Positions 10,912-44,556 of a stretch of 46,668 nt of DNA are shown one piece after another; the first letter of the stretch is position 1; every line of letters begins with the position of its first letter. The notes under the pieces were generated by a model. The model was not told the origin of the DNA. It searched no databases and saw only the letters and a list, made by a program, of their open reading frames with translations. Where the stretch lies: contig JAIXVI010000114.1 of the NCBI GenBank assembly GCA_027483065.1, positions 1-46,668 on the forward strand. The letters are read 5' to 3'. This stretch comes from Planctomycetaceae bacterium. GTDB taxonomy: Bacteria; Planctomycetota; Phycisphaerae; Phycisphaerales; SM1A02. The translations under genes and the position numbers were made by a program.

Positions 10912-11952
10912 TCACGCGAAGCGCCGCATCCACGTCTCAATGGCAAGCGGCAACGCCTCAGGTGCCTCCCCTGCTGTGAAGAGATGATTCGTATTTCCGA
11001 GCGCAAAGCACGTAACCAACGCCGAGTTCGGCACATCTTCGCTCTCGAACTCGCTCATCGTCATGCGCCGCACTTCAACATCCGCCGCAAGTGCGATACG
11101 AGCACACAACGTGTCGCAATTCGCACCGTCGGCAACAGCGAGGAATGTCGGAACCTGCACCTCTGTCAGGTCGATCCACGCATCCACGACATCACGCGCA
11201 ATTCCATCTGGCATGCGACCGCGATCGAACCATTCGTAGGTTCGTTGCGCGGCGCGGGCGACCGACGCAGATCCACGCCGCCGCGCGAGGCCGCGAAGCA
11301 CGCGCTCCGTAAACGCGCGCGGATTTCGCCATGTCACTTGACTCGCGACACGAGCATGAAGGAAATCTGGCTCAAGCAGAAGAAGTCCTGCACATCTTCG
11401 CCCCATGCGTCGCGCTGCGCGAACACTTACCACCGCACCAGCGCAAAGCCCGCCAAGCACAACACGATTCACCCCATGACGCGCACAGATCTGCTCAACC
11501 ACTTCCGCGAGTACGTCATCGAGCGGCGACTCTTGCGCCGCGATACGAAAGTCTTCAATACGCTTGAATGAATCACCAGTGGAGTCGCCAATGCCAGGAA
11601 AATCCATGCGAAAAACCGGATACCCACTCCGTGCAAGTTGGTCGGCGATTTGCCGTGAAAGATCGCTGTTTCCGGCCCGCGGCGCAGGCCCTGCATTCAC
11701 AAGTACAAGGGCAACGTCGGTTCGCTCCGCAACAATCGTCGGGCGGTGATACGTCGCGAGAATCGACTCATTGCGCCAACGATACGTCTCAAACATTCGT
11801 TGACCCGTTGATGTCGCAGCACACCCTGATGATGCATGCAAGACGGGTGTACGCGAGAATGATGCATGCGAAGATGATGCATGCGAAGGTCGTGCTTGCA
11901 CGAGTGGCTCAGTTTGAGCGCGCTGCGTCCATATTGTCGCATCCGGGTTCAT
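10912..11952 (-). CDS. Alpha/beta-hydrolase-fold protein with cysteine at the nucleophile elbow (hydrolase B)
   Basis: The last gene of the seven-gene operon, 346 residues. The start ATG at 11952 has GGGAG 6 nt upstream. The first 50 residues are low complexity and are encoded partly by a 15-bp repeat. The fold starts near residue 53 with MFETYRWRNESILATYHRP. The hydrolase core shows RMDFPGIGDSTGD (oxyanion/strand-4 region) and VVLGGLCAGAVVSV, where the usual G-x-S-x-G elbow has Cys170 instead of serine. An aspartate (VADGANCD) and a histidine (GNTNHLFTAG) stand at the expected acid and base positions. A Cys-His-Asp triad could catalyse acyl transfer or hydrolysis, as in dienelactone hydrolase. 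Resembles the hydrolases that accompany exosortase-A loci. Substrate unknown. Confidence 0.75.
   Translation of the reverse strand: MNPDATIWTQRAQTEPLVQARPSHASSSHASFSRTPVLHASSGCAATSTGQRMFETYRWRNESILATYHRPTIVAERTDVALVLVNAGPAPRAGNSDLSRQIADQLARSGYPVFRMDFPGIGDSTGDSFKRIEDFRIAAQESPLDDVLAEVVEQICARHGVNRVVLGGLCAGAVVSVRAARRMGRRCAGLLLLEPDFLHARVASQVTWRNPRAFTERVLRGLARRRGSASVARAAQRTYEWFDRGRMPDGIARDVVDAWIDLTEVQVPTFLAVADGANCDTLCARIALAADVEVRRMTMSEFESEDVPNSALVTCFALGNTNHLFTAGEAPEALPLAIETWMRRFA
11829..11888. repeat. 15-bp imperfect repeat in the hydrolase B N-terminus
   Basis: Three blocks built on atgatgcatgcgaag, two of them adjacent (11859-11888) and one separated by a diverged block. Each contains the palindromes ATGCAT and GCATGC. 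In the gene they encode repeated Ser-His-Ala-Ser runs. Confidence 0.7.
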
Positions 11953-11983
11953 TGGCATCTCCCTTCATGTGCGCATGGTTCCT

Positions 11984-12913
11984 TCATGCGAGCACGTTTG
12001 AAGTACGCACCTGTTCAAACCACGCTCCAAGCGCGTCGAACCAGTGGGCGTCCTGTGGAACAAGCTGAGGTGATGACTCCCAAAATCTTGGTGCATGTAT
12101 GACAAGTCGATGGGCCGTACTCGAACTGACGTCCTGAAGGCGTGGCTGCGCTGCTGATGCCGCAACGCCCTTGTCGGGAATACGCATGGCGGAGCCACGC
12201 AAATCCAACTGAAGCCACGGTCGCCCTTCGCCGGAATCGGGCATTCGAAACACGTGCTTCGCGGCCTCCGCAATGAAGCCAGGCTTCCAGAGATAACCAT
12301 CAACGCGCGCTTCTCGACCCGCTGCGATGGCTGCATATCCCGCGAACAATTCTGCGTGCGACGCCCCTAACGATTCTTCATGCCGCGCCTTTGCAGCATT
12401 TCCATGCACAAGATCAGCCACCAATGCTCGACGCGATGCATCACGCAAAAGCGACTGACCATCACCCTGTCCCATGAAGACCACTGCATCGCCACATCCC
12501 TCGGCAAACAGCTCGCTTGCAATGAGCGCGCCCACGCGCACACCCACCAACGCGGTTGTGAGACCCAATGGCGCGATGGTGTGCAGGTGTTGAACAACAC
12601 GCCGTGCATCTTCCGCCCACAAGCCGATCGTCGCTTCGTCGAAATTGCCTTCGCTCTCACCAAGACCACGATGGTCGTATCGGAACACTTCGTAGCCGCG
12701 ATCGGTGAGCGCACGCGAGAAATCAACGAGCGTTCGATAGGCGCGCTCGCGCTCAGCACCGATCGGCCCAATGAGCACGACCCGCAGTTGCGCAGGGTCC
12801 CGCGGACGGTGGTGGACATACGCAAGCCGCGCATCTTCGAGTACAGCAAAGCCGTGCTCCTCCGTTGCGCCATGAGTCCGCCCATGCACGATGGCGTGGC
12901 GTTCAAGTTCCAC
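11984..12913 (-). CDS. Alpha/beta-hydrolase-fold protein lacking the serine nucleophile (hydrolase A)
   Basis: About 309 residues of the alpha/beta-hydrolase fold, related to exosortase-A-associated hydrolases. Core motifs are VLIGPIGAERERAYR, FRYDHRGLGESEGNF and, at the elbow, TALVGVRVGALIASE. The nucleophile position is Arg126 rather than serine; I recall similar G-L-R-x-G elbows in this subfamily, so the change may be ancestral. A DGYLWKPGF segment replaces the usual late-strand motifs. I place the start at GTG 12913: AAGGGAG stands 8 nt upstream and the overlap with the preceding gene shrinks to 11 nt, whereas the ATG at 12988 would overlap it by 86 nt. Probably not a classical serine hydrolase; a binding or scaffold role is an inference. 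Confidence 0.72.
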   Translation of the reverse strand: MELERHAIVHGRTHGATEEHGFAVLEDARLAYVHHRPRDPAQLRVVLIGPIGAERERAYRTLVDFSRALTDRGYEVFRYDHRGLGESEGNFDEATIGLWAEDARRVVQHLHTIAPLGLTTALVGVRVGALIASELFAEGCGDAVVFMGQGDGQSLLRDASRRALVADLVHGNAAKARHEESLGASHAELFAGYAAIAAGREARVDGYLWKPGFIAEAAKHVFRMPDSGEGRPWLQLDLRGSAMRIPDKGVAASAAQPRLQDVSSSTAHRLVIHAPRFWESSPQLVPQDAHWFDALGAWFEQVRTSNVLA

Positions 12914-13898
12914 TGCGAGATCTCCCTTGTGCACCACCCCGCACATCCCCGCCACCAGTTTGAGCATTCGGCGGCGTGAATTCCGCATTTTCCGCGAGTT
13001 TCAGTAGGAGCGCGCGTGCAACCACAACTTGCCCAAGTTCGTTGAGATGGCCGCCATCCGACGTGTACTCCGCGCAAAGCGCTGGCCACGCCACGCCCGC
13101 GACGGTACTCGTCTTCGCAGAACCGTCGAGGGCTCGTGACTCAACCGCGGCGATATCGATGATCTGGCTCACCGGAAATCGAGCGCGCAGCAAGTCGTTG
13201 TATCGACCACGAATTGCATTCGCAGGCCCAGTGCCGTTGCCAACGAGTCGCTTTACCGCACCCTTTGCACCTTGATCGGCAGCCTTCAGCGGAACTGTTG
13301 CGTGCAACACACGCAACGTTGGTCGCGCACGTTTGATGCGCTCGACCATCGCAACGTATCGATCAAACAAACTCTGGGCGTTGGTCGATCCATCAATGTC
13401 TGCGTAACACAATTTGACGAACGCAATCTCAATCGCCTCTCCACCGGCGCCTACGACAAAGCGCTCAAATGCCTCGAACTTTGCGCGCGGATCACCATTT
13501 GGGCCCGCAGGTCCATGCACGAGTCCCGGTTCATCGAACGCACCACGCGCGTCGCCTTTCGCGTTCTCAGAAGACGCTGCAATTCGTCGCGTCGAGAGCG
13601 CGATTGTTGGACGCGCCCGCTGAATCTCTGCCAATCCGCGCATCATGTTGCCACCGACGGATTGATGCGCAAAGTAGATCCGTCGTGCACGGAGGGCTTT
13701 CCAGCGCTCTTCCGGCACGCGATCGATCTCATCCAATCCCACCTGCGCGACGATGTCGTCGCGGCGATCGTCACGCTGCGGCGATTTCGGATCCGGCGGC
13801 TCTGTCGCAACACCACTTGCCTGGCCAAGCGGAAGCAAACTCAAACCGACGACAGAACTCGCGAGCGACGCAAACGCAAATCGATGCAAGGATTTCAT
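12903..13898 (-). CDS. Exported SGNH-like protein, intact-motif paralogue
   Basis: A 331-residue exported protein. It has a signal peptide (MKSLHRFAFASLASSVVGLS, cleavage near the ASG stretch). After a charged linker comes IYFAHQSVGGNMMRGLAEI; Ser80 in HQSVG is in the position expected for a block-I nucleophile. Near the C-terminus SDGGHLNELG provides Asp281 and His284, spaced as in the D-x-x-H motif of SGNH enzymes. Between them are RVLHATVPLK and RGRYNDLLRARF. Family members of this H-Q-S-V-G type are, as far as I know, uncharacterised. It starts with an ATGA overlap to the NAD-synthase-like gene and has GGAGG 7 nt upstream. A diverged paralogue lies at 38983-40062. The last 25 residues are low complexity and overlap the next gene by 11 nt. 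Confidence 0.72.
   Translation of the reverse strand: MKSLHRFAFASLASSVVGLSLLPLGQASGVATEPPDPKSPQRDDRRDDIVAQVGLDEIDRVPEERWKALRARRIYFAHQSVGGNMMRGLAEIQRARPTIALSTRRIAASSENAKGDARGAFDEPGLVHGPAGPNGDPRAKFEAFERFVVGAGGEAIEIAFVKLCYADIDGSTNAQSLFDRYVAMVERIKRARPTLRVLHATVPLKAADQGAKGAVKRLVGNGTGPANAIRGRYNDLLRARFPVSQIIDIAAVESRALDGSAKTSTVAGVAWPALCAEYTSDGGHLNELGQVVVARALLLKLAENAEFTPPNAQTGGGDVRGGAQGRSRSGT
12922..12928 (-). promoter_or_regulatory. Shine-Dalgarno sequence that decides the start of hydrolase A
   Basis: AAGGGAG on the minus strand lies 8 nt before GTG 12913. No comparable site precedes the ATGs at 12988 or 12967; the ATG at 12946 has only a G-rich run. The site lies inside the end of the preceding SGNH-like gene, consistent with coupled translation. 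Confidence 0.65.
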
Positions 13899-15085
13899 GG
13901 GTTGGCCTCCTTCGCGGAGAGAAGTACTGATGTTTCGCCTTCGACGACAAGCGCGGATCCATCCAGTCGCGACGCAACGCGTCGCTTGAGATCGATGTCG
14001 CGATACACGCGCTCAACGGCGGCCGGCGTCATTGCGGTGATTTCACTCGCCCGAGTCGTCGACACTTGATGCATGTAGCACCACAGCACAAGATCGAGCG
14101 TTGCATATGGCAGCCCGAAGTAGAACTCTTGCTGCGATTGTGGAAGGCTGTAGGTATCTGTGGTTGGAATCTGCCCTGTGATCGACGCGGGAAGGCCTAG
14201 AAATCGGCCAAGGGCGAACACCTGCGACTTGTAGAGATGCGCGATTGGCTTGAGATCGGCAAGTCCATCGCCGCCACGCACGAAGAAGCCAAGCGCATGT
14301 TCGAGGAGATTTGGCGTGCCAAGCACCGCGCGATTCGAAGCATCGGCAGCTGTGTATTCGACGGTCTTCCGGACGCGCTGTTTCAAATTCGTCGCAGCAA
14401 CAACCTCAAGGTAGATGTCAACCGGGAGTCGCGCGACAGCTGTGGCTCCAGCGCGCGCCGAGAGTGATGCAACCACGTGAAAGTGATTGACGCGATCACT
14501 CTCCGCTACATCATTCGCAATCGTGATCTTGAAGCGATCACCGGGTCGAAATGCAGGTAGAACACGGGAGATGGCGACATCGCGGCGCCGATAGCAGCCA
14601 AAGGCTTCAAGCATGGGCGTGATGTCGACAACTTCCGGCGCAACTCCAGCGATGTGACAGGCTGCATGGCCGAGTTCAAGGCTTGCAGGCGAACTTTCAC
14701 GCTCGGGCATCAGAATGGCGGTCACTCGATCATGTCCGAGCGCTCGCGCGGCGAGTACCACGGAGACCGAGGAATCAATTCCCCCGCTGACGCCGAGAAC
14801 CACACCACGACGTCGAAGTTTCATGCCGACGGCATCACGAATCGAGCGTTCGATCCGCTCACATTCGAGGCCCGGATCAATCTCGAGCACCGACTTTTTC
14901 TCAATCGACACATCCGTACTCAATGTACCTCCTCTGCGCTGCATGAGCGATTCGCTTTCATGCGATTCAACCAATGCCGACTTTGCGAGGACACTCGTCC
15001 GTATGTCGAATGAATCCAACGCCTCTGGTGGAGCAGACGCAGGGAGTGAGTGCTGTGCGATCGAATTGAAAAAGGCTTGCGTCAT
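13895..15085 (-). CDS. NAD-synthase-like ATP pyrophosphatase of a specialised subfamily
   Basis: A 396-residue N-type ATP pyrophosphatase related to NadE. The P-loop GVSGGIDSS (residues 98-106) is intact, as is GDGLADLKPIAHLYKSQVF, the counterpart of the NadE segment before the substrate loop. The substrate loop differs: where NadE has P-S-A-x-L and a Q-T-D-E run, this protein has IPTTDTYSLPQSQQEFYFGL (306-325). About 90 residues before the P-loop are an extension without glutaminase features. NadE-like proteins with such loops are known beside amidotransferases in glycan loci, so it probably adenylates a carboxylate or carbonyl of a sugar or acyl substrate rather than deamido-NAD. It starts by ATGA overlap behind GGAGG in the amidotransferase tail. 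The function is an inference. Confidence 0.8.
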   Translation of the reverse strand: MTQAFFNSIAQHSLPASAPPEALDSFDIRTSVLAKSALVESHESESLMQRRGGTLSTDVSIEKKSVLEIDPGLECERIERSIRDAVGMKLRRRGVVLGVSGGIDSSVSVVLAARALGHDRVTAILMPERESSPASLELGHAACHIAGVAPEVVDITPMLEAFGCYRRRDVAISRVLPAFRPGDRFKITIANDVAESDRVNHFHVVASLSARAGATAVARLPVDIYLEVVAATNLKQRVRKTVEYTAADASNRAVLGTPNLLEHALGFFVRGGDGLADLKPIAHLYKSQVFALGRFLGLPASITGQIPTTDTYSLPQSQQEFYFGLPYATLDLVLWCYMHQVSTTRASEITAMTPAAVERVYRDIDLKRRVASRLDGSALVVEGETSVLLSAKEANP

Positions 15086-17298
15086 CGTTCATCCTCCGAG
15101 CATGCAAAGCACTCCTCCGAGCACGCGCATGCGTCGTGCTTGAAGATCGAGATTGCGCTCTCACGTTGATCGACGGCATTCGCGAAACTCGCATGCTCGA
15201 CGAATCGTTCGTGCCAGAGCACAAGCGTTAAAAGCCCAAATGCAGCCATTTCTTCGCGTTCTGAAAGTGGCGTGGTTGCGCTCGCCGTGAAGGCACGTTG
15301 CGCGAGGCGCGTCGCCGCGGGGCCATCGATGAGTGGATGTGCTCGCAAACGCGTGTCCGAAAGTGCATCGCGCACAAAGTCCGGCGCATCGACGCCGAAG
15401 AACGCCCTTTGCATCGGTGATCGATACGGCCACTTCGGCCGCTCCGCGATTTCTCGCGGAAGAAGTCGGCGCGCGATCCGGCGGAGAAGCGGCTTCTCTC
15501 GCAATCCGACAAGACGCTCTTCTGAACGAAGTCGTGCTGCCTCTGCCGCGAGCGCTCCATCAAGAAAGGGATAGCGCCCTTCGACGCCATTCGCCATCAA
15601 CATCCGATCGCCCTGACTCGAGAGGAGATACGGCACCATGAACGAAGCGATCTCTAACTCCTGCGCGCGTCCAAGATCATCGAGATCGCGCCACGCCGGA
15701 GGCATCGCAGACTCAACGCACCGACAGAACGCTTCCTGGTCAAGTGACGCACGAATGTCTTCCGACAGAAATCGCACCATCCACGCACCGCTCTGCCAAC
15801 GCAGGAGATGCGACGCAAACGGATCGGTGTCGCCGGATCCAGAACGTTGCAACGCGTGCTCTTGCCCATCCTCGCGCAGATGCGCGGACGAATCGCGCCG
15901 ATGCGCATAAGCCTCGCCCGAGCTCAGAAATGCGCTCCACATGGCAATGCCGCCGTCGGTTCGTGTGGCATGTTGCCGATGAAGCCGCGATGCCAGTGCC
16001 TGTCTCATTTCGCTTGCGGGATCACGGGCGAGATACGCGCGCAGACGAGCCTCTTTGAAAATGTCATATCCACCGAAGAGTTCGTCCGCGCCTTCGCCAG
16101 TCAGAACCACGCGCATCCCCTGTTCGCGCACAAACTCCGAGAGGAGCAACATCGGAATGGGACCTGCTCGTAGGAGCGGCGATTCTGTGTGATTGATCGT
16201 GCGTTCGAGTGATTCCACGAGGCGATCGGTTCCCACGGCAATTTCACGATGATCGGTTCCAAGGGCCTGCGCGACCATGTGCTGCGCGGCGCCCTCGTCA
16301 AATCCCCGATCAAAATCACGTTCACCGCGAAATCGAATGGAGAACGTCGTTGGCGGGCTGCTACCGGCGCGCGCTCGTTCCTCCACGATCAATGCGGTCA
16401 GCAGCGATGAATCCAGTCCTCCCGAGAGATATGCCCCAACAGGAATATCTGAGCGAAGCCGTTGCTGCACAGCGTGGCGAAGTCGCTCGGTGACCCGCGC
16501 CTCGCTCGAAGAGCTTTCTCGAGAGTTGTTCGATACCGCCAGGAACTCCAGAGAATCAGATGCATCGCGAAGTCGCGCATAGGTTCGCCCGACAACCGAA
16601 CACGATCCCTTGCCGAGCGAGTCTTGTCGTTCCCGCCGCCAAACAGGCGAACCAATCGCGTCGAGTGAAATCCGCACACGCTGACCTGGCGCGACAGAAT
16701 CCACTCCTTCAAACACGCTTCTCGTACCCGGGACCGACCAATTTCGAAACACCGCGTTGATCGCGATGCGATCGACGCAAGGTGCGACGCGCCCCGATGC
16801 GAAGATTGCCTTTGCTTCTGATGCAAAGATCAAGGCATTCGGAAGTCGGGCGACAAAGAGCGGGCAAATGCCGGCACGATCGCGCACGAGATACATGCTT
16901 CGGGCAAAGCGATCCCAAAGCGCAAGTGCGAACTGCCCTTCGAATCGACGCCACGCGTCATCGCCCCAACGTTCGTAGGCCGCGAGAACAACTTCCGTGT
17001 CACTCTTCGTCGAAAACACACGACCATCCGACTCGAGTTCGCGACGGAGCTCGATGTGGTTGAAAACCTCACCGTTGTAGACAATCGTCGTTCCACGCGC
17101 GGGATTCGAGAAAGGCTGCGCACCTCCCTCGCGATCGATCACTGCAAGTCGCGTGTGCGCGAGACCAACGCGACCTTCCACCAGAATGCCGCGTCCGTCT
17201 GGTCCGCGATGCGCGAGCGAGTTCGCCATACGCGAGCACTCCTCTCGCGATGGCGGTGGCGCGTCGAGGCCCGCAACAACGCCAGCGAAACCGCACAT
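15082..17298 (-). CDS. Class II glutamine amidotransferase / asparagine synthase-like protein
   Basis: A 738-residue two-domain enzyme. The N-terminal glutaminase domain begins MCGFAGVV with the catalytic Cys2, followed by HRGPDGRG, YNGEVFNH and RDRAGICPLF. The synthase domain has the ATP loop LSGGLDSSLL (291-300) and TGEGADELFGGYDIF. Glutamine-derived ammonia would be delivered to an adenylated acceptor. It is longer than housekeeping AsnB (about 550-650), with a serine-rich insert at 240-270 and an insert near 440-490. It resembles the amidotransferases of exosortase-A loci, which are thought to act on exopolysaccharide rather than aspartate. The tail is cysteine-rich (CACSEECFACSED) and its codons duplicate the motif TGCTCGGAGGA, one copy being the ribosome site of the next gene. 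The start is 1 nt after the ligase stop. Confidence 0.87.
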   Translation of the reverse strand: MCGFAGVVAGLDAPPPSREECSRMANSLAHRGPDGRGILVEGRVGLAHTRLAVIDREGGAQPFSNPARGTTIVYNGEVFNHIELRRELESDGRVFSTKSDTEVVLAAYERWGDDAWRRFEGQFALALWDRFARSMYLVRDRAGICPLFVARLPNALIFASEAKAIFASGRVAPCVDRIAINAVFRNWSVPGTRSVFEGVDSVAPGQRVRISLDAIGSPVWRRERQDSLGKGSCSVVGRTYARLRDASDSLEFLAVSNNSRESSSSEARVTERLRHAVQQRLRSDIPVGAYLSGGLDSSLLTALIVEERARAGSSPPTTFSIRFRGERDFDRGFDEGAAQHMVAQALGTDHREIAVGTDRLVESLERTINHTESPLLRAGPIPMLLLSEFVREQGMRVVLTGEGADELFGGYDIFKEARLRAYLARDPASEMRQALASRLHRQHATRTDGGIAMWSAFLSSGEAYAHRRDSSAHLREDGQEHALQRSGSGDTDPFASHLLRWQSGAWMVRFLSEDIRASLDQEAFCRCVESAMPPAWRDLDDLGRAQELEIASFMVPYLLSSQGDRMLMANGVEGRYPFLDGALAAEAARLRSEERLVGLREKPLLRRIARRLLPREIAERPKWPYRSPMQRAFFGVDAPDFVRDALSDTRLRAHPLIDGPAATRLAQRAFTASATTPLSEREEMAAFGLLTLVLWHERFVEHASFANAVDQRESAISIFKHDACACSEECFACSEDER

Positions 17299-17299
17299 T

Positions 17300-18892
17300 T
17301 CAAACCCCCGCTCCGACGAGTGCTCGTCGAATCACTTTGCCATTTGCAGTACGCGGAATCTCCCGACGGAACTCGATGAATCGAGGTTGGAGCGCTGGCT
17401 CAAGCAACGCCCGACAGTGCGCGCGCAGCGTGCGCTCGTCGACGGTCGCATTCGCCTCGAGTACGACCACTGCATGAATCGCCGTGCCATCTTCTTCGTG
17501 CGCGACTCCCGTGACGGCTGCGTCGACGACGCCATCGAGCGATGCGAGCACGCACTCAATCGCCATCGGAGCGACTTTCTCACCGCGACATTTGAAGATC
17601 TCATCTTCTCGCCCGATGAAGGTCAGCAGGCCGTTTCGATCCATGCGAAAGCGATCTCCGGTACGCAGCACTCGCTCCGCAGAACACGCCTCTGCCATCG
17701 GTGAAGGAATGAACTTCTCGGCGGTTTCCTGGGGGCGTCGCCAATAGCCGCGAGCGACATTCGCGCCGCGCACAACAAGTTCTCCCTCGCTTCCCGCAGG
17801 CAACCGTCGACCTCGCGCATCGATGAGAAACAGTTCGCAGTTTGGGATCGCTGTTCCAACCGAGTCTGGATGAGTTGCAACGAGCCGAGGATCAAGCGTC
17901 GCCGCCCGCGAGCATTCGGTCTGCCCGTACATGAGATGAAGCGCGACATGTGGCAACGACTGCGTACATCGCAATGCTTGCGCGGGCGGAAGTGACGCTG
18001 CGGCACACGTTACTGCACGAAGATTGGACAGATCCAGCTCGCTTTGCGAAAGCGTGGCGAGCATGCGAGTGATCATCGTCGGAACGGCGACGATCACCGA
18101 TACGCGATGCCGCGCCATGCGACGCATGGCGTCGAACGGAAACGCAAAGCTTCGTTCGAGAACCACCGTCGCGCCGCTTCGTAACGCGGTCCACAATTGA
18201 AGGAATCCGTAGCTGTAGGAGATCGGTATCGCAAGCGAAACGACGTCGAAATCACGAGTATTCGTATCACTGAGATACTCCGCGACCGCAGCGGTCGTGT
18301 TCAAGAGGTTCGCATGCGCGAGCATGACGCCCTTCGGCTCACCCGTCGTGCCCGACGTGTAGATGATCGCCGCAAGATCCGCGTCGATACAGCCAACTTC
18401 ACGCGCCGTCACTTTGGATGTCGAGGCTGCGTGACCAAAATCAAGCGGTACACCCAACGGCCGAGAGAAACTGTCATCGAGCGCGAACTCCACCCAGCGC
18501 GCATCAAGACCGTCGCTCTCTTCTGCGATCGATGCGCGCAACGACACAAGCGTGACACGCGGTGCGACGACTGCTTGCGGATCGCAGTCCGCGAGAATTG
18601 CGCGAAGCCGGGGCATACGCGTGTCCGCAGGAATTGGCACCAGCACTGCGCCTGTGCGAACGACGGCGAGATACGCGACCACCGACTCAATCGCATTCGG
18701 TGCGACCACCGCAACACGATCGCCTCGGCAAACACCTGCACGTTGCAAGGCAATCGCCACACGCCGCGAAGCATCTTCGAGATGCTTCCAATCGATCGTT
18801 CGATCACCATCGATCAACGCGGCGCGCGCGACCCCACAGGCCGAAGCGAACTCCTTCACGCGTTCAAGGATGACATCATCGAGTAACTGCAC
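17300..18892 (-). CDS. AMP-forming acyl/aminoacyl ligase (ANL superfamily), exosortase-A-associated type
   Basis: A 530-residue adenylate-forming enzyme that should activate a carboxylic or amino acid and load it on the neighbouring carrier protein. Core motifs are complete: YTSGTTGEPKGVM (178-190), MYGQTECSRA, RTGDRFRMDRNG, IGREDEIFKCRGEKV and the C-terminal RTANGKVIRRAL, with Lys519 as the A10 lysine. No condensation or reductase domain is attached. It is closest in style to the ligase that accompanies exosortase-A clusters, and to stand-alone amino-acid ligases such as DltA; the substrate cannot be read by eye. The start is GTG 18892 with GAGG 6 nt upstream, inside the 3-prime end of the carrier gene (17-nt overlap). 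Confidence 0.87.
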   Translation of the reverse strand: MQLLDDVILERVKEFASACGVARAALIDGDRTIDWKHLEDASRRVAIALQRAGVCRGDRVAVVAPNAIESVVAYLAVVRTGAVLVPIPADTRMPRLRAILADCDPQAVVAPRVTLVSLRASIAEESDGLDARWVEFALDDSFSRPLGVPLDFGHAASTSKVTAREVGCIDADLAAIIYTSGTTGEPKGVMLAHANLLNTTAAVAEYLSDTNTRDFDVVSLAIPISYSYGFLQLWTALRSGATVVLERSFAFPFDAMRRMARHRVSVIVAVPTMITRMLATLSQSELDLSNLRAVTCAAASLPPAQALRCTQSLPHVALHLMYGQTECSRAATLDPRLVATHPDSVGTAIPNCELFLIDARGRRLPAGSEGELVVRGANVARGYWRRPQETAEKFIPSPMAEACSAERVLRTGDRFRMDRNGLLTFIGREDEIFKCRGEKVAPMAIECVLASLDGVVDAAVTGVAHEEDGTAIHAVVVLEANATVDERTLRAHCRALLEPALQPRFIEFRREIPRTANGKVIRRALVGAGV

Positions 18893-19259
18893 GGAGTGCC
18901 TCGCTCGAAGAGGGAGCCTTCTCGAACTTCAACTTGCTCGAAACCTCAACCGTCAGTGTGGTTTTGCTCACGATTTCACTCGCAGCATTCACCGCTACCC
19001 GCTTTCGCGCGACGAACGAAGCGATGCGTTCAATCGAATCGAGATTCGCGGGAACAAGTTCGTTGTCCGCGACTTCGATTCCGAACTGCTCTTCGAGGAA
19101 AAGCACGAGTTCCATCGCCCCGGTCGAGTCGAGAATGCCTTCGCCGAGAAGCGACGATCGAACATCGATCGACGCGTCTGGATCAAAGAGAAATCGCTCT
19201 GCGAGAAAACGGCGAATAGGTTCAGCATCCGCGGGGGGTGCGCCACGCTCTTCCTGCAT
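18876..19259 (-). CDS. Acyl carrier protein, first gene of the seven-gene operon
   Basis: A 127-residue carrier protein. The phosphopantetheine site is GILDSTGAMELVLFLEEQFG, with Ser45 as attachment residue, and the flanking helices (IRRFLAERFLFDPDASI and LDSIERIASFVARKR) match the four-helix fold. A C-terminal extension of about 35 residues (with SKTTLTVEVSSKLKFEKAPS) is not part of the usual domain. I choose ATG 19259, with GGAG 6 nt upstream; longer readings from 19382 add basic, repeat-like sequence. It directly precedes the AMP-forming ligase, so the two likely work as a loading pair. An operon promoter should lie in the 368 nt upstream. Confidence 0.85.
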   Translation of the reverse strand: MQEERGAPPADAEPIRRFLAERFLFDPDASIDVRSSLLGEGILDSTGAMELVLFLEEQFGIEVADNELVPANLDSIERIASFVARKRVAVNAASEIVSKTTLTVEVSSKLKFEKAPSSSEALRAVTR

Positions 19260-19627
19260 ACATCGCTCCGATCTGGACGTGTGACCCGAACATCGTGCTC
19301 GCACGCGTTGTGCATGCACGAGTCGGTCCGTCGGCGCGATCGTATGAAGATGGCTTCCATCGTCGAGCAAAACGCAACGCAACGCAGCGCTTTCCCTCGC
19401 ATCAAGGAAAGCTCTGCGAGCATCGTTGCTCAGGGATTTGTGCTTGCGACGCGCCGCAATCCGACTAGACCAACCCTGACGCTAGCGCGCTCAACCGCAC
19501 CCGCGCGATCGCGAGGTAAGCGCGCGTCATCGCTGCGAGAGATCTCTGAACACGATCACGCGCAGACTCAAGCGCTGTCTCAAGCGCTGTCTCAAGCGCT
19601 GTCTCAAGCGCTGACTCACCCGCACAC
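19260..19627. other. Intergenic region upstream of the seven-gene operon
   Basis: No gene is supported in these 368 nt. They must carry the operon promoter on the minus strand, but I see no convincing -35/-10 pair in the GC-rich sequence. A 7-bp inverted repeat (gctttcc at 19389-19395, ggaaagc at 19406-19412, 10-nt loop) could be an operator or leader hairpin. The far end holds a 12-bp tandem array next to the AbgT stop codon. Confidence 0.5.
19566..19613. repeat. 12-bp tandem repeat (4 copies), unit tctcaagcgctg
   Basis: Four nearly perfect copies, the first differing in one base, end 15 nt before the stop codon of the AbgT-type gene, that is, in its 3-prime untranslated region. Each unit contains the palindrome AGCGCT. 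Confidence 0.9.
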
Positions 19628-26177: not shown

Positions 26178-26195
26178 GGCGCGCGGTCACGCGCC
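26178..26195. terminator. GC-rich hairpin between convergent genes
   Basis: The sequence ggcgcg-cggtca-cgcgcc, a 6-bp stem with a 6-nt loop, starts 2 nt after the DinB-like stop codon and overlaps the last codons of the opposing gene. No T-tract on either strand. Confidence 0.35.
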
Positions 26196-27977
26196 CCATC
26201 GGGCGAGCAGCACAGCCAAGTCGGCCGCGCCCACCGAGCCGTCGTAGTTCAAATCCGCACTCGGAAGCGTCGTTCCCCAAGCGCCCAAAAGGATCGCGAG
26301 GTCGCCTGCGTCGATTGCACCATCGCCGTTGATATCCGGCGATGCAGGCGGCGGGCAGAGATCTGGATAGCCGTCTTGGTCGCTGTCGGTGCAGTCGGTT
26401 CCTGCGCCGTTCCACGGAATGCCTAGCACCGCTGCATCGACGTCGGTGATCTGTACACAGCCGCCGTACGTGCATGTCGAGCCGAGCGTACGTACACAAT
26501 CAGCCCACGTTGCTCGCGCGCAACCCGCATCGGGAATCGACAAGCCATGGCAGAGTTCGCCGACGAATGCCTCCGCAAGCATGCGCTGCGCATGTGGCTT
26601 CAGGTGCGCCGCATCGAAGAGGTACGGCCGACGATCAAGCCATCGGTACTCCTCCGCGACGATGCGTGGCAAGTTCAACGCGAGGACATTCGCATCTTGC
26701 AGCGCGATCTCATGGGCCACCACGGGCATGAGATCCAAGATCGGAAACCCGTCCACGGGTCCGCTGCGCAAATCGCTCGCGAGAATGACGGGGAACGTCG
26801 GATCTCCAGTCTCGGCACGTATCCAGGCGACGGTCTGCAGCACACGTGATCGCCATTCGTCGAGGCTAATTCCATACGCTGCGTCATTCGCGCCAAAGTG
26901 CAACACCGCGACGCTCGGATCCATCGCGCGCAGAAACGGGCCGCTTTGCGCATGCTCGCCGAGCACGTCTTGAAGTCGCATTCCACCGCGCGCAAACGAT
27001 TGGACCACGACGCCACGATGTGCGCTCAGACTTCGAAAACGAACACCCGCAACTTCAGTGCCGAGTGACTTCCCGTATTTTTTTGTGTTCTGCGTTTTGC
27101 CGCTCGCAGTTCCGCCATTCGTTCCGTCGTTCTTCGCATCGTTGCTCGGAATCGCGCCACTGAGATTGAGCTGCACGTGCCGCTTGCCGCCGAAGTCGAG
27201 CGTAGGCGTTTCAAGCCAATGAAAACTTCCCGCAGCCGCTTTCGCTGGCATGGGAAGCACCCCACTCTGCGCCACCGCAGCACCAGCGCCCGCCACGCTG
27301 CCATCGCTTGGCGTATTCGACCATTGCACCGCCGTCGGACTTGTACTGCCGATCGCGAGGATCTCACCGACAAACGGCCCTTGCGTATCGAACCATGGAC
27401 CGCCGACCAACACTGGATCTGCCGCAGCCGACGCATCGTGAAGAAGCATCGCACGAAAGGCCCCAAGGGCCGTGCCGTCGTCCGCGAGCAGTCGTCGTAC
27501 GACAACACCTGGGAGAAGCGACGTACTCGCAACACCCGTCGGCAAACTCGCGGCACTCGTCGTACTTGAGGCCAACCAGTGCGGGGTTCCTTGCATACCC
27601 ACATTGGTAAAGAGCATGGTCTCACCTGCGGGTCCGAAGACCTTCGCGAAACGCGCGTTGAGATGCGGAAGGTAGAGTGAGCCAAAGCCACCCGGCATCG
27701 TTTCCTGCGAATCGCCAAGCACAAGGACGCGAACGATCGACTCATCCGACGTTTCAAGGAGCGTGCGAAATCGCTCGGGTGATTGAACACTCACGCGAGG
27801 CACCGAAAGAAACGGCGGATCCTCATCGCCGCGAGCGACTTCAGCCGCCGCACCGATCGTGGCGACCGCGATGAATACAGGCGCTGTCTGATGACGCACC
27901 CAACGCGCGATCTCGCCGAGCGCTCGCCGAGGCTCAGAGACGAGGGCACCCAGATCTTGGAAACACCGCAGAGTCAC
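26187..27977 (-). CDS. Secreted SGNH/GDSL hydrolase with a dockerin-like tail
   Basis: A secreted esterase-like protein. Motifs of SGNH hydrolases are all present: LVLGDSQETMPGG (Ser90 in the longest reading), HFGANDAAYG for block III and FDAAHLKPHA for block V. Between blocks I and III is an inserted beta-rich module of about 200 residues. The C-terminus has a four-cysteine segment (CARATWADCVRTLGSTCTYG) and then two calcium-loop repeats, DINGDGAIDAGDLAILLGAW and ADLNYDGSVGAADLAVLLAR. The longest reading starts at GTG 27977. A GTG at 27896 would give a cleaner signal peptide (MRHQTAPVFIAVATIGAAAE) and is my preferred alternative. It could deacetylate a glycan, which is an inference. It is not closely similar to the two HQSVG-type proteins. 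Confidence 0.82.
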   Translation of the reverse strand: MTLRCFQDLGALVSEPRRALGEIARWVRHQTAPVFIAVATIGAAAEVARGDEDPPFLSVPRVSVQSPERFRTLLETSDESIVRVLVLGDSQETMPGGFGSLYLPHLNARFAKVFGPAGETMLFTNVGMQGTPHWLASSTTSAASLPTGVASTSLLPGVVVRRLLADDGTALGAFRAMLLHDASAAADPVLVGGPWFDTQGPFVGEILAIGSTSPTAVQWSNTPSDGSVAGAGAAVAQSGVLPMPAKAAAGSFHWLETPTLDFGGKRHVQLNLSGAIPSNDAKNDGTNGGTASGKTQNTKKYGKSLGTEVAGVRFRSLSAHRGVVVQSFARGGMRLQDVLGEHAQSGPFLRAMDPSVAVLHFGANDAAYGISLDEWRSRVLQTVAWIRAETGDPTFPVILASDLRSGPVDGFPILDLMPVVAHEIALQDANVLALNLPRIVAEEYRWLDRRPYLFDAAHLKPHAQRMLAEAFVGELCHGLSIPDAGCARATWADCVRTLGSTCTYGGCVQITDVDAAVLGIPWNGAGTDCTDSDQDGYPDLCPPPASPDINGDGAIDAGDLAILLGAWGTTLPSADLNYDGSVGAADLAVLLARWGA

Positions 27978-36000: not shown

Positions 36001-38649
36001 TCACGGCACATTATGCCACTCCTTCGACGCATTCCGAATGAAGCCACTCGCCGAACGACTCAGCCCTGACATCAACCAACCGTGAACATCGCCGGTGATC
36101 GAGTCGCGCCACAAGAGATCGCCGCGACCATCGCCGTTGAAGTCGGACGCGTCGACGACGTTCCAACGCGTCGCGATCCCTGCCGCGATCGTGGCGGAAG
36201 CGCGCCGCACCGCACCTGCCATCAGCCAACCGACCACGTCGCCGCGTGTTTGGTGACGCCACACCAAGTCCGCTCGCTGATCTCCATCAAGATCGGCGAC
36301 CGCGACGACCTTCCAACTTGCACTGATCGCATTGGCGGTTGAGACCACCGAATCCACTCGGACGATGAGACCCTGCATGAACCAGACGTGCACAGCGCCA
36401 CTCTCGTCACGCCAAAGGAGATCAGCTGCGCCGTCTGCATCAAGATCACCGGCACCGAGGAACTCCATATCCGACGCAAGACCAACAACGCCCGTTTCGA
36501 GTCGCGTCGCGCCATCCATGATCCATGCACGAACCTCTTCCGTCTCGCCGTGCAGGAAGATGAGGTCATCACGCGCGTCGTCGTTGAGGTCTTCGACCGC
36601 GACGAGAGACCATCGAGCGCCGATAGGACCGGAAAGTTTCGTCGCCTCTGAAACGGCAAACCCATTCATAAACCACGCAGAAAACGCGCCAGTCGATTGA
36701 TCACGCCACACGATGTCGAGTCGACGGTCACCGTCAAGATCGCCAAGCGCTTGCGCATCGGTGCCTGGTACAGCATCCCGCGTGAGCATCCCAGTCGATT
36801 CGCGCACGAGACCATTCATCGTCCACGCGGCCATCCGACCGCTTGAGCCTTGATGCCACACAACATCACCCCGACCGTCGCCGTTTGCATCATTTCCAGC
36901 GATGTTCGGGCCAAGCGCGAAAATGCCCACTGCGCCTTCCTTCGACTTCGGATCCTCCGTCGAAATGCCGAGCACGATCCATCCATCGCGCATCGCTTCA
37001 CGCTCGATCGCCACTGCGGTGACGACGGATTCCGGTGAAGCACCCGCATCGATGATCGCCGCCGGCGATCCAACGGAGACTAGCTCCGCAACAACAGGAT
37101 CAGACGGACCGAATGCCGAGAAAATCCCGTCGATCTCGCCACGACGTGCTTTGAATGTAACGCGGTAACCGGAGCCCGTTCCACCGTGATCGCGGTCGTT
37201 CGCAACCGCGATGAACGTTGCGCTTCGCCAGCGCGCGAGTTCACCTTCTTCTTCCTCAATCGCGACGCCCTCGCCTCCACCCTCACCACCGCCCTCACCG
37301 CCGCCACCCGTACCTGGCGCGCGGCCGCTGAAACCCCAGAACACAAAGTCGGTGAAGTCACCCTTGTCAGTTCCGGTACGCGCGACCATCGTGGTCACAC
37401 CATTGGAGAGGTCGTGCACAAAAACCCCTTGCTCCGCGGGAACCTCTGCGATGTAGCCCTGTGGGTGTTGCTGGTTGCACCACGCGATGATGTCGGGGTT
37501 TCCATCAGTCGGGCATGAGAGATGGATTTCACGCACCGCTTCGCCCCAACCTCCCCAGAAGGCGATGAAGCGTCCATCGAACGACAGCGCTTCGCCGAGG
37601 CGCGTGAACCCAACACCATCGACTTCGCCCGGCACTTGATCGCCGATGGAAGCGATCGCAGTCAACTCAGGATCATTCGCGATGGGTGCAACATAAATGC
37701 CACCGAGCGTCGGTGACTCTTCGTTGTCGACGCCGAGGAACGCAACCAATTCATCTGCCGCCGATGGCGGCGCCGTTGAACCGAAGCGAATCGGTTCCTT
37801 TCCAGCCACACCTCCTGCGAGCGGGACTTGACCCGGGATGATGGTGTCTGATGAGGCGATTCGAACGAGCGGCGCATAAAGCATATCCAAATCCCGCGCG
37901 TAAATGCCAGTTTTCCCTGCTGATGTCGTTGGGTCTGTGAAGTTGCCTTTCGTCAAAACCCAACGTCCATCTGCGATCGCGGGTGACCCTGGAAATTGAT
38001 CGAAACGCGTGCCCTCTGGCATCCCGGGCACCGAAAAGTGTGGGAACACAGATTCGCCCGTCTTCGGATCAAGCACAGCTCCCAACAAACTGAAAGCTGT
38101 AAAGAACTCGCCGCGTCGAAGTACATAGATTCCCGCGGTTCCCACCCGTGTTTCGCTGCCATCTTCGAGCGGATAGGTCCACACCGGACCGTGAACGCCA
38201 CGCGTCGCGATCACTTCGGAACCTTCATCGATGCGAGGGATCGAGGGAAACTCGTTGAAACTCGTCAACGCTGGTTCAGGCGCCCCGGCAACCGCACCCT
38301 CACCTTCTCCACCGCCGCCGCCTTCGGGTGGCGTCAGCGTGTTGTTGGGATCAGGAACCGTCGTTCCACGAAGCGCCATCACTTCAATCGGCTGGCCTTG
38401 CGCACCCATGCGCCGGATGAAGACGCCGCGCATGGGCTCGCCTGGCCCGCGGCCGCGCGCCCGAAAAACCACGGCGCCGTGGTGATTGATGGACGGCTGA
38501 TTGAAACTTGAGAAGTACACATCGGAGCCAGGAATCAGGTCACGGCTCGTTGCGATCGGTCGCCACTGTGTAAACGGAGCGGGATCGCCCGCATGTGCGG
38601 CGATAGACACCGCGAGTGCGATCATCCAAACACCAGGTCGCTTACGCAT
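36001..38649 (-). CDS. Exported FG-GAP/VCBS repeat protein
   Basis: About 882 residues, secreted (signal peptide MRKRPGVWMIALAVSIAAHA). AGGAG lies 8 nt before ATG 38649, which fixes the start. The first 570 residues are a beta-rich domain resembling choice-of-anchor or adventurous-gliding-type propellers, with repeated phrases such as KTGIYARD, GGIYVAPI and GVFVHDLS. Two Gly/Glu-rich linkers (residues about 110-125 and 450-470) are coded by 12-bp-like repeats. The C-terminal 300 residues hold six FG-GAP/VCBS blades with calcium loops DANGDGRGDVVW, DLDGDRRLDIVW, DLDADGAADLLW, DLDGDQRADLVW and DFNGDGRGDLLW, each followed by W-x-M-x-G. Such proteins bind glycans or other surface ligands; the partner is unknown. 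Confidence 0.82.
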   Translation of the reverse strand: MRKRPGVWMIALAVSIAAHAGDPAPFTQWRPIATSRDLIPGSDVYFSSFNQPSINHHGAVVFRARGRGPGEPMRGVFIRRMGAQGQPIEVMALRGTTVPDPNNTLTPPEGGGGGEGEGAVAGAPEPALTSFNEFPSIPRIDEGSEVIATRGVHGPVWTYPLEDGSETRVGTAGIYVLRRGEFFTAFSLLGAVLDPKTGESVFPHFSVPGMPEGTRFDQFPGSPAIADGRWVLTKGNFTDPTTSAGKTGIYARDLDMLYAPLVRIASSDTIIPGQVPLAGGVAGKEPIRFGSTAPPSAADELVAFLGVDNEESPTLGGIYVAPIANDPELTAIASIGDQVPGEVDGVGFTRLGEALSFDGRFIAFWGGWGEAVREIHLSCPTDGNPDIIAWCNQQHPQGYIAEVPAEQGVFVHDLSNGVTTMVARTGTDKGDFTDFVFWGFSGRAPGTGGGGEGGGEGGGEGVAIEEEEGELARWRSATFIAVANDRDHGGTGSGYRVTFKARRGEIDGIFSAFGPSDPVVAELVSVGSPAAIIDAGASPESVVTAVAIEREAMRDGWIVLGISTEDPKSKEGAVGIFALGPNIAGNDANGDGRGDVVWHQGSSGRMAAWTMNGLVRESTGMLTRDAVPGTDAQALGDLDGDRRLDIVWRDQSTGAFSAWFMNGFAVSEATKLSGPIGARWSLVAVEDLNDDARDDLIFLHGETEEVRAWIMDGATRLETGVVGLASDMEFLGAGDLDADGAADLLWRDESGAVHVWFMQGLIVRVDSVVSTANAISASWKVVAVADLDGDQRADLVWRHQTRGDVVGWLMAGAVRRASATIAAGIATRWNVVDASDFNGDGRGDLLWRDSITGDVHGWLMSGLSRSASGFIRNASKEWHNVP

Positions 38650-38982
38650 CTTGAAATCTCCTGCACCCACGTTCCCTCGATGTCAACTCGGCGGGGTCAG
38701 CCGCATTCAACACCGCCGTGATCACGACGGACAACGACGCTAGACCTCGCGTCACGAACAATCGACGGGGATGATTGCGCAGTGCTGCGATCTCACATCA
38801 TCGATGCCACACGTACCAACATGCTCGACGTGCTGGAAAAGAAACACGCGGTGCATGCTCGATTTGAACACGCACCGCGCGCGATGATGGATGACGTTGC
38901 TGCGATTTCAACTCGACGCGTCAGCGATATCGACTCGCTCGCTGACAGCGCAAATCATGCGCTCTCGCAATCGTTTGCAGAA
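38650..38982. other. Intergenic region between the FG-GAP and SGNH-like genes
   Basis: These 333 nt carry no gene I trust: reading frames across them lack ribosome sites and run into the neighbouring gene. An 8-bp inverted repeat (gtcagcga at 38920-38927, tcgctgac at 38939-38946) stands 37 nt after the stop codon of the SGNH-like gene and may mark its transcript end, although no T-tract follows. Confidence 0.45.
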
Positions 38983-40062
38983 TCAATCACTCCCGCCGGT
39001 GCCGGGAACCACCGTCACTTCTGCCTCTTTCGGCAACTGTGCCTTGACGCATGGTCGAACCAACGCTGTTGCGAACTCACGCGCGATGGCGATACGCCCT
39101 TCGTCATTGAGATGACCACGTTCATCGGCGTGTTCAGGAGTCAGTGCGGGCCAACGAACACTCCCAACGAGCACGCTGCATGACTTCCCGTCCATGCGCT
39201 CACTCTCTGCCTGCGCGATATCGAAGATGGCCTCGCGGCCAAATTCTGCTCGAAGCAGATCGTTGAATCGCCCGCGTTGAGCGTTTAGTTGGTCTGCACC
39301 ACGCCCAACAAACTTCTTCATGCGCGCCGTCACTCCGTGGTCGGGTACCGCCAATGGAACTGTGCTGTGCACAATGCGCAAGTTGGGTCGTTCTCCCGAA
39401 AGCGACCGCATCGTCTCGACGTAATGCTGGTGCAGTGACTCAACGTTGGTCTCGCGCGTGAAATCCTCGGCCGAAAGCAGGAGCACTGCCACATCGACAT
39501 TCTGACCTTCCTTCGATCGAAGCTTCGCGACGAATCGATCAATCTTCGACATTGGGTCACCGTCCGCTCCCGTCGGCCCCTCCACGATCGCAGGCGTTCC
39601 GAATGGCGGCGGAGAAACAGTATTGCCTGCCTGTGGCTTTGATGGCGCCTCCCCGTATGCAATGACTTTCAAGTCCATCGAAGGACGTTCGTCGAGGATT
39701 GCATGAAGTCCGACCAACAGTTCCTTCCCCACAGGTCCGTGTGCGAAGTACACGCGTTTCTGTCGAAGGTCTTCCCAGCACGCGTCGGGAATGTCGTCGA
39801 TCAGACCGATGTCATGTCGCGGAACATGTTGCACCGCGCGATCGGTGGCGTCTTCCTCGCTGGTATTCGAGTGTTCACGCCCGCGATCTTGAGTTCGATC
39901 ACGTGTGGCTTGATCCTTCGTCGACTCCTTTGTTGCTTCTTGTGCAGCAGTCGCGGCACGCAAATCCGCTACGCCAACAACATGCTCCGCGGCAACCGAC
40001 GGCGCTGCGGAGACGAGCGTTCCCAACGGCATCACGAGAACTCCGGCGAACAAACTCAACAT
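38983..40062 (-). CDS. Exported SGNH-like protein, paralogue with lost catalytic residues
   Basis: A 359-residue exported paralogue of the protein at 12903-13898. The signal peptide is MLSLFAGVLVMPLGTLVSAA; GGAGA lies just upstream of ATG 40062. A charged linker of about 50 residues (Thr/Lys/Arg/Asp-rich) precedes the domain. Shared segments are VYFAHGPVGKELLVGLHAI, EGPTGADGDPMSKIDRFV, RIVHSTVPL, RGRFNDLLRAEFG and RGHLNDEG. At the nucleophile position the paralogue has Pro110 where the other has Ser80, and the residue three before the histidine is Glu instead of Asp. It is therefore probably inactive as a hydrolase and may bind the same ligand. It follows the two-component genes, behind an intrinsic terminator. 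Confidence 0.72.
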   Translation of the reverse strand: MLSLFAGVLVMPLGTLVSAAPSVAAEHVVGVADLRAATAAQEATKESTKDQATRDRTQDRGREHSNTSEEDATDRAVQHVPRHDIGLIDDIPDACWEDLRQKRVYFAHGPVGKELLVGLHAILDERPSMDLKVIAYGEAPSKPQAGNTVSPPPFGTPAIVEGPTGADGDPMSKIDRFVAKLRSKEGQNVDVAVLLLSAEDFTRETNVESLHQHYVETMRSLSGERPNLRIVHSTVPLAVPDHGVTARMKKFVGRGADQLNAQRGRFNDLLRAEFGREAIFDIAQAESERMDGKSCSVLVGSVRWPALTPEHADERGHLNDEGRIAIAREFATALVRPCVKAQLPKEAEVTVVPGTGGSD

Positions 40063-40280: not shown

Positions 40281-41120
40281 TTACGCTTGCGCAAGTCCTT
40301 CGCGGATCGCGAAGCGCATCAACTCAGCACGCGTTTCAACGCGCAACTTCTTCATGATGCGCTCTTGATGTCCATCCACGGTCTTTGGACTGCGCGCGAG
40401 TTCTTCACCAATTTCACCGCGCGAAAGTCCCTTTCCGATGAGTCGCAATACTTCGAGTTCGCGCTGGGTCAAGAGATCGAGCAATGTTGCGGGCGGCCCC
40501 GATTGCACCACCTGTCGTGCTCCAACGGCTCCTTGCCGCGAGGCGCGCACTTTCGGTGGCTGACATCGTGCGCGGACCTTCGAACCCATGACGAATGTGC
40601 CTTCCGCGCAACGCGCCACACGCTTCAAACCTTCGACGATCTCCTCAAGATCGTCGCCCTTTGCGAAATAGCCGCTTCCCCCGCAGCGATACGCCGACGC
40701 GAGGAATCCATCACGAATGTGCGCGCTGAGGAAGATGAAGCGGACCTCGGGATGCAGATGGTGGAGCCGATCGGCCACTTCGAAGACATCCGGCCCAGGC
40801 ATTTCAATATCGAAGACGACGACGTCCGGACGATGCTCGGCAACCGCGTCGATCACATGCTCAGCACTCTCGAGACTTGCCACGCAGCGGAGTTGCCCGT
40901 CGATACCAAACTGCGCTTTCAAACCTTCAACAAGTACAACGTGATCGTCTACGCAAAGCACTCGGACCGGTGCCTTCGATGTATCGCGCGTAAGTGTCTG
41001 TGATGGCGGTGCATCGACGGCGCGCCGACGCGCGATCGTCCGTAAACCAGACGTTTCATCGATGTTTCGATCCGAAGTGACCGCTTGTGAAGACGGTGCC
41101 GCGATTGTGGAGCCTTGCAT
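40281..41120 (-). CDS. Two-component response regulator, NarL/LuxR type
   Basis: A 279-residue regulator (start ATG 41120; a GTG at 41157-41159 would add 13 residues). An unusual 50-residue polar N-terminal leader precedes the receiver domain, which begins VRVLCVDDHVVLVEG. The phospho-acceptor is Asp104 in VVVFDIEMPG; the switch residue (IFLSAH) and lysine (GYFAKGDD) are present. A basic linker leads to a LuxR-type helix-turn-helix, LTQRELEVLRLIGKGLSRGE to SPKTVDGHQERIMKKL. The domain order and the adjacent kinase make phosphorylation-dependent DNA binding likely. Targets are unknown; the downstream SGNH-like gene is separated by a terminator. Confidence 0.9.
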   Translation of the reverse strand: MQGSTIAAPSSQAVTSDRNIDETSGLRTIARRRAVDAPPSQTLTRDTSKAPVRVLCVDDHVVLVEGLKAQFGIDGQLRCVASLESAEHVIDAVAEHRPDVVVFDIEMPGPDVFEVADRLHHLHPEVRFIFLSAHIRDGFLASAYRCGGSGYFAKGDDLEEIVEGLKRVARCAEGTFVMGSKVRARCQPPKVRASRQGAVGARQVVQSGPPATLLDLLTQRELEVLRLIGKGLSRGEIGEELARSPKTVDGHQERIMKKLRVETRAELMRFAIREGLAQA

Positions 41121-41258
41121 TTGAGCCGACCTTTCTTGAACTCTGTTTTTCTCACCCACTTCAGACGCTCATTCGGAACCCACCGCGTCTGACTTTTCGA
41201 TTCGTCGCAACAGACCACGAGCCCGTGCGCGATTTTGTGTTTGTGAAACTCGTTGACA

Positions 41259-43923: not shown

Positions 43924-44556
43924 ATGGATCAGGTGTTTCATATGGATCAAGATTTTGGCACTTCACACGCGACGACCGTTCCTACGGAAGCCGCGGCAAC
44001 ACAACCATTTCTCGACGAACGCTCCATCGCGCTCGAACGCATGGCGCGATGGACAACGGCTGGACTGACTGCGATTCGGATCGCGACCACCGATGCACGT
44101 ACCGCGTCGCTCTATGCGGGATCACTTGATACCCGTGGACGGCTTCATCTCGTTCTGGTTGGCAGCATGCGCTCGCGTTGGGAATCGTTCCACCAATCGC
44201 ATCGTCCGGACGAACTTGGACGCGGCCCGAGCGCGAACGCCGTGCAGCGACCGGCATCGATCGGACACGAACCCGAAGAACTGATGCGTCGGTTTGCACG
44301 CGAAGTTTCCGATTGGCTCCATCAAGCGAAAGAGACTGCACCGACCGAGCCGCTCGCGGTCTTCGCTGCGCCGCGTTTCTTGGGCCATCTGCGTGACGCG
44401 CTCGGGCCGCTCACCGATGGAATCGCGCTCTATCGCGGGGAATTCACGACATTGCGCACAAACGAACTGGCAGCACACCCAACTGTCCGTCTTCTCGCCC
44501 AATCTATGCGCACTGAGACGCAGTCTCGCGTCGTTCGCCCAGGGGTCGATCGATGA
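43924..44556 (+). CDS. Host-attachment-family protein (Host_attach/AtsE-like)
   Basis: About 210 residues. The second half matches the family first described as needed for attachment of Agrobacterium to plant cells: RRFAREVSDWLHQAKE, LAVFAAPRFLGHLRDALG and FTTLRTNELAAHPTVR. The first half has the usual alternating strands (GLTAIRIATTDARTASLYAG). Members are soluble and related to release-factor-like folds; many are in stress operons, so the name should not be read as proof of host contact. AGGAGGAG precedes ATG 43924 (MDQVFHMDQD). It ends with ATGA overlap into the fused methyltransferase gene. Confidence 0.8.
   Translation: MDQVFHMDQDFGTSHATTVPTEAAATQPFLDERSIALERMARWTTAGLTAIRIATTDARTASLYAGSLDTRGRLHLVLVGSMRSRWESFHQSHRPDELGRGPSANAVQRPASIGHEPEELMRRFAREVSDWLHQAKETAPTEPLAVFAAPRFLGHLRDALGPLTDGIALYRGEFTTLRTNELAAHPTVRLLAQSMRTETQSRVVRPGVDR

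Follow-up and report, generated by a model that had tools for sequence, protein, structure and literature searches.

A selected and repeatedly inactivated SGNH-fold paralogue at a regulatory locus of a planctomycete, and its proposed function

Members of the SGNH/GDSL superfamily (Pfam clan CL0264; PF13472, PF00657) carry a GDS serine in block I, an asparagine in block III and an Asp-x-x-His pair in block V. In an SGNH lipase from Streptomyces rimosus, mutating the block-I Ser, the block-III Asn or the block-V His is reported to abolish activity (PMC10779480). The fold can also serve in binding, for which the OSK domain of Drosophila Oskar (5cd9, 5a4a) is a precedent (PMC6191285, PMC7250577). 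A third known system that bears on the present case is the set of exosortase-A-associated genes (TIGR03098, TIGR03100, TIGR03101, TIGR03108). Here we describe two proteins of predicted SGNH fold, SGNH1 and SGNH2, encoded in a stretch of 46,668 nucleotides from a Planctomycetaceae bacterium (assembly GCA_027483065.1, contig JAIXVI010000114.1), referred to below as the window. Searches of open-access literature on SGNH pseudo-enzymes and inactive SGNH homologues, on exosortase gene sets and on SGNH proteins with two-component systems in Planctomycetes turned up no account of this pair.

SGNH1 (12903..13898, minus strand, 331 residues) is the operon copy and carries Ser80, Asp281 and His284 in the motifs HQSVG and DGGHLN. 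SGNH2 (38983..40062, minus strand, 359 residues) is located beside a two-component system (TCS), 25,085 bp from SGNH1, and has Pro110, Glu314 and His317 in the motifs HGPVG and DERGHLN. The two proteins are 37% identical over about 260 residues (E 4.2e-51; E 1.4e-69 in a profile-to-profile comparison), and they are the only two matches in the 3.69 Mb host genome. They share the blocks YFAHQSVG/YFAHGPVG, RGRYNDLLRA/RGRFNDLLRA and GHLN/GHLN. The preliminary description of this DNA is thus borne out as to both reading frames, the shared blocks, the residues Ser80, Asp281/His284, Pro and Glu, and the location of the second copy some 25 kb away, where a LuxR-type regulator and a histidine kinase adjoin it. 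Hydropathy reveals an N-terminal hydrophobic stretch in both proteins which, read by eye as a signal peptide, suggests that both are exported. Three relatives (L048, L049, L051) have lipobox-like cysteines when inspected by eye.

The explanation favored here, to which we give a probability of about 0.72, is that a duplication in this genus produced an active operon copy and an exported, non-catalytic TCS copy. SGNH2 would then be a paralogue that is kept by selection and has been inactivated repeatedly at a regulatory locus, and its function can be proposed from its context. Together, intact relatives across phyla, a single duplication and a conserved locus form a series from enzyme to pseudo-enzyme within one genus, which turns the use of the SGNH fold without its nucleophile into a testable question in bacteria.

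Part of the evidence comes from the catalytic positions. Family members were gathered from the genus, the class, the phylum and named genomes of other phyla; the named relatives in the genus are mostly metagenome assemblies of planctomycetes, and the GC-type dockerin encoded in the window agrees with this. The tree contains 35 members: four operon copies from the genus itself, 11 operon-type proteins of other groups, 11 distant members and nine TCS-locus proteins. The Ser80-Asp281-His284 set is complete in all 26 members outside the TCS locus (15/15 operon-type, 11/11 distant) and in none of the nine TCS-locus proteins. The preliminary description had read the serine as the nucleophile, a reading that would fail if the serine varied across the family; the alignment has it in 26 of 26 members outside the TCS locus, so that the reading stands. 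At the three positions the TCS copies have nine different residue sets, one of them uncertain: PEH, PDQ, PEQ, PDN, HEH (with an ambiguous end), SDS, TDH, SGD and AGD. The uncertainty concerns L010/L046, in which an insertion disrupts the end of the domain, so that its residues at 281 (E) and 284 (H) could be placed only by guesswork in the alignment. The loss of catalytic residues that had been claimed for the second copy holds in the window for the serine (Pro110) and the aspartate (Glu314), but the histidine is still present as His317.

The counts were made after several sequences had been set aside, among them duplicate rows from loci fetched twice. In L025/L035 (genome G482) the domain runs across two frames, with the Ser and D-GGH seen by eye; L032 (G217) has FASRSWG in block I and, as judged by eye, retains the Ser and ends in DLIH; L105, a second match of G592, shows HRSVG and DAQH by eye; and L011/L052 (G082) is truncated at a contig end, with HQSVG present. 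L033 (G409), a relative whose motifs read HANLG and DDGGYLN, comes from another genus and was also left out. It has lost both the Ser and the His, so inactivation is not limited to the TCS locus.

The changes in SGNH2 extend beyond the catalytic residues. Of the 30 positions that are invariant in the 15 operon-type proteins, SGNH2 of the window alters eight (S80P, N84E, N134D, K162L, C164S, Y165A, T279A, D281E); all eight surround blocks I, II, III and V. The set of eight "active-site" positions was picked after the alignment had been inspected. At the same time, none of the nine TCS copies departs from 14 of the operon-invariant residues: His78, Gly82, Gly88, Lys140, Phe144, Asp167, Tyr181, Thr201, Pro203, Asn227, Arg230, Asp248, Ala250 and Leu285. 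Such retention, together with the Thr-Asp-His set of one copy, could mean that the TCS copies are still enzymes which use another nucleophile or a different chemistry. The losses are concentrated around the catalytic blocks, however, and differ in kind from lineage to lineage, unlike what one new chemistry would leave behind, and we consider this alternative unlikely. Judged from these residues, the TCS copy is very probably non-catalytic.

The tree suggests how the pair arose. The TCS copies form one clade (support 94/83), and together with the operon copies of the genus they form a clade apart from all others with a joint support of 99/98, which places the duplication in the line of this genus. 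The sister clades thus agree with the duplication proposed earlier. On the same tree the TCS copies require at least three changes at the Ser, two at the Asp and three at the His. This pattern fits a release from constraint followed by different losses in each lineage.

Lost catalytic residues, and the lack of a TCS copy in two genomes that have the response regulator (RR), are also what a decaying gene without function would produce. The reading frame, however, is open in all nine TCS copies whose domain is seen in full, and the pN/pS ratios of SGNH2, 0.19-0.39 over six pairs, are near those of the intact SGNH1 (0.19-0.32), the response regulator having 0.08-0.17; these ratios are rough, as synonymous sites are near saturation. 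The position beside the histidine kinase (HK) and response regulator genes is conserved as well. The open frames and the pN/pS values lead us to reject a decaying pseudogene as extremely improbable. SGNH2 is under purifying selection, which makes it a maintained pseudo-enzyme.

The SGNH assignment itself comes from structure prediction. The GDSL family PF13472 is matched only below threshold, at 13.8 bits (P0001) and 19.1 bits against a cut-off of 32.9; the NCBIfam search yielded no fitting family for either protein, and nothing significant emerged when solved structures were searched with phmmer and with profiles (best E 0.78 and 1.1). AlphaFold2 models were built from alignments of the window proteins and the fetched relatives, and their cores have pLDDT values mostly above 90. 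Structural matches with E below 0.001 are, for both models, almost all SGNH hydrolases and O-acyltransferases. In structural alignment SGNH1 superimposes on 4hf7 with Z 14.6 (rmsd 3.0, 177 residues aligned) and SGNH2 on 4ppy_A with Z 13.4 (rmsd 3.4, 178 aligned); designed scaffolds stand slightly above these in both alignment lists. If the alignments are ungapped near their ends, their end-points place Ser10 of 5b5l on residue 80 of SGNH1 (110 of SGNH2) and Asp191/His194 of Axe2 on 281/284 (314/317 of SGNH2); the register of Axe2 Ser15 is one position off. Both proteins are therefore predicted to have the alpha/beta/alpha fold of SGNH/GDSL hydrolases. One of the structures matched by the SGNH2 model is the Oskar OSK domain (5cd9, Z 11.9, rmsd 3.4, 170 aligned). 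Unlike the OSK domain, which binds RNA inside insect cells, SGNH2 has a putative export signal.

The operon copy shares with the superfamily its predicted fold, the block-I Ser and the block-V Asp-x-x-His, but it has HxSVG in place of GDS in block I, and the block-III Asn is absent throughout the subfamily to which it belongs. This unnamed SGNH subfamily can be marked out by HQSVG ... KxC[YFW]xD ... DGGHLN. Even the "active" operon copy is a variant SGNH site. As a best guess from the alignment, the invariant Asn134 could replace the block-III Asn in the oxyanion hole of SGNH1; Asn84 is another candidate. Gly132, a candidate for the block-II Gly of the oxyanion hole, is kept in 14 of 15 operon-type and six of 11 distant members.

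At the TCS locus, SGNH2 follows on the same strand a LuxR/NarL-type response regulator (40281..41159, minus strand) and a histidine kinase with PAS and HATPase_c domains (41259..43310, minus strand). The order HK-RR-SGNH2 on one strand is found in nine of ten genomes; in the tenth, very little sequence precedes SGNH2 on its contig, and the contig with the RR ends just past the RR. Of the 12 genomes of the genus that have the RR, 10 carry SGNH2; of the four that lack the RR, none does (Fisher p 0.008; the genomes are not independent). Downstream of SGNH2 the window has an FG-GAP repeat protein (36001..38670, minus strand) and, farther on, a canonical SGNH hydrolase with GDS, GAND and DAAH motifs and a C-terminal GC-type dockerin (26187..27977, minus strand). 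A homologue of this dockerin hydrolase lies directly downstream of SGNH2 in five of the ten genomes; in four the FG-GAP gene comes directly after SGNH2, and in one of these the hydrolase then follows. The dockerin hydrolase is present in 9/10 genomes with SGNH2 and 2/6 without, and its blocks GDS, GAND and D-x-A-H are intact in all nine sequences read (the window and eight related loci).

The adjoining kinase and regulator genes and the co-occurrence with the RR could indicate that the TCS copy acts in the periplasm as a receptor or co-sensor which relays a ligand signal to the adjacent histidine kinase; a possible receptor is what the preliminary description had suggested. The hydropathy scan of the kinase, however, found no segment hydrophobic enough for a membrane helix (top mean over 19 residues, 1.37), which should make the kinase cytosolic, and SGNH2 is probably exported; a kinase without a membrane segment cannot easily read an exported protein. 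Furthermore, one genome (G079, 88% complete) has the same kinase-regulator pair and no SGNH2 gene downstream. The receptor role is thus not supported, and we regard it as improbable.

Several observations weigh against the reading of SGNH2 as the inactive twin of a working enzyme that acts together with its neighbors. No single catalytic residue is absent from all nine TCS copies. One copy (L007) has Thr-Asp-His and two (L006, L008) keep the Ser with a partner missing, so that some TCS copies could retain activity, and SGNH2 of the window combines His317 with a Glu in the Asp position. The catalytic geometry is inferred from alignment registers rather than from model coordinates. On the side of SGNH1, the block-III Asn (GxND) is absent from all 26 members with the complete set, position 166 being Ala, Val, Ile or Thr, in a register taken from the 6njc alignment and from hhalign against the canonical dockerin SGNH protein (weak, probability 1.5). 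As position 166 is never Asn in these intact members, the oxyanion hole of the operon copy cannot depend on the usual Asn and must use something else. As for the locus, two genomes with the RR (G075 and G079) yielded no SGNH2, and the dockerin hydrolase is not beside SGNH2 in 3/10 genomes, the window included; in a fourth (G082) it is not seen there, and the contig ends at that point.

SGNH1 belongs to a run of minus-strand genes between 10912 and 19382. Upstream of it are its partner, an NAD-synthase-like amide ligase of the PRK00876 family (13895..15085), an asparagine-synthase-like amidotransferase (15082..17298), an AMP-forming acyl ligase (17300..18892) and an acyl carrier protein (ACP; 18876..19382). 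Two alpha/beta hydrolases follow, one TIGR03101-like (11984..12988) and one TIGR03100-like (10912..11958). The first of these overlaps the 3' end of SGNH1, the two frames sharing up to 86 bases (12903-12988), which may mean that the two genes are translationally coupled or that the true start lies farther into the frame. The set of ACP, acyl ligase, asparagine-synthase-like, NAD-synthase-like and SGNH genes recurs in Planctomycetota, Gemmatimonadota and Spirochaetota, which ties the HQSVG subfamily to a conserved acyl- or amide-making gene set found in several phyla. Within the stretches covered, 14 of 16 operon-type loci have the NAD-synthase-like gene, 14 have the acyl ligase, 13 have the asparagine-synthase-like gene and 12 have the ACP, with loci cut by contig ends counted in.

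In the genus, SGNH1 and its NAD-synthase-like partner are found in the same four of 16 genomes. All four also carry the TCS copy, with Pro at the nucleophile position, as might be expected if the TCS copy regulated the operon enzyme, served as its decoy or formed a dimer with it. Yet both the operon copy and the NAD-synthase-like partner are missing from six of the ten genomes with a TCS copy, three of which are 96% complete or better, and such genomes make a partnership with the operon enzyme quite unlikely.

The operon ligase, hydrolases and amidotransferase match exosortase-A-associated models, all below the curated cut-offs: TIGR03098, the best NCBIfam match of the acyl ligase, at 371 of 592 bits, TIGR03108 at 311 of 817, TIGR03100 at 49 of 168 and TIGR03101 at 62 of 203. 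The host genome has two exosortases above cut-off, and none lies inside the window. In one operon-type locus (L080) the gene immediately after the SGNH gene encodes an EpsH exosortase, and a sugar transferase and glycosyltransferases adjoin; a spirochaete operon-type locus adjoins sugar-nucleotide genes. These neighbors suggest that the operon is concerned with a polysaccharide. A general linkage of the operon with exosortases is not claimed, an exosortase being present in one of 12 operon stretches from outside the genus.

By combining the predicted fold with these gene neighborhoods, it is possible to outline what the two proteins may do. The pair would go back to a duplication in the ancestral line of the genus. 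SGNH1 most likely has its substrate outside the cytoplasm, in the form of a substituent with an acyl or amide group. The substituent would be made by the ACP, the acyl ligase and the asparagine-synthase-like and NAD-synthase-like enzymes, and would probably be carried by a surface polysaccharide or a related product. From its model and residues, SGNH1 is probably an exported serine enzyme of the SGNH type that hydrolyzes acyl esters or transfers acyl groups by a Ser-His-Asp mechanism. The choice between the two activities bears on whether SGNH1, like PatB or OatA, places the operon product on the polysaccharide instead of acting as an esterase. O-acyltransferases have the same fold: PatB (7tjb) ranks second among the Foldseek matches of SGNH1, OatA (5ufy) aligns with Z 12.9 (rmsd 2.9, 165 aligned), and the partner genes make activated acyl groups. 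Hydrolases, however, are equally close in fold, and the acyltransferase role can be put forward only tentatively. The earlier picture of an enzyme with its pseudo-enzyme stands as to the loss of the catalytic set (0/9 against 26/26), and it is by inference that the operon copy is called an esterase or deacylase.

SGNH2 would have retained the fold and many invariant residues while the nucleophile and the residues around it were lost. Without the nucleophile no acyl-enzyme can form, and hence SGNH2 may have a binding or scaffolding role. Most likely it would bind a substituted glycan or acyl ligand like that of SGNH1 and work, without catalysis of its own, alongside secreted proteins of the locus, in particular the intact dockerin-tethered SGNH hydrolase often encoded beside it, and the two-component system would control expression at the SGNH2 locus. 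That SGNH2 is a binding partner is possible, at somewhat less than even odds. A bolder and rather doubtful extension is that the TCS-locus proteins are fast-changing exported pseudo-enzymes which recognize acyl-substituted glycans, in effect esterases turned into lectins, and cooperate with the neighboring intact dockerin-tethered hydrolase. They would have been inactivated through different residues in each species after one duplication, with much of the scaffold fixed, and would parallel in bacteria what the OSK domain is in Oskar.

The TCS copies of the four closest species have a conserved C-terminal tail (38983-39030 in the window, EAEVTVVPGTGGSD-like), which SGNH1 does not have; this tail is possibly an interaction or anchoring signal. 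The same TCS locus occurs in a record titled Limnohabitans (L046), probably a mis-binned contig or a mislabelled assembly. Near the TCS, the window and related genomes also encode a protein-isoaspartate methyltransferase domain fused to an erythromycin-esterase-like domain (44553-46634).
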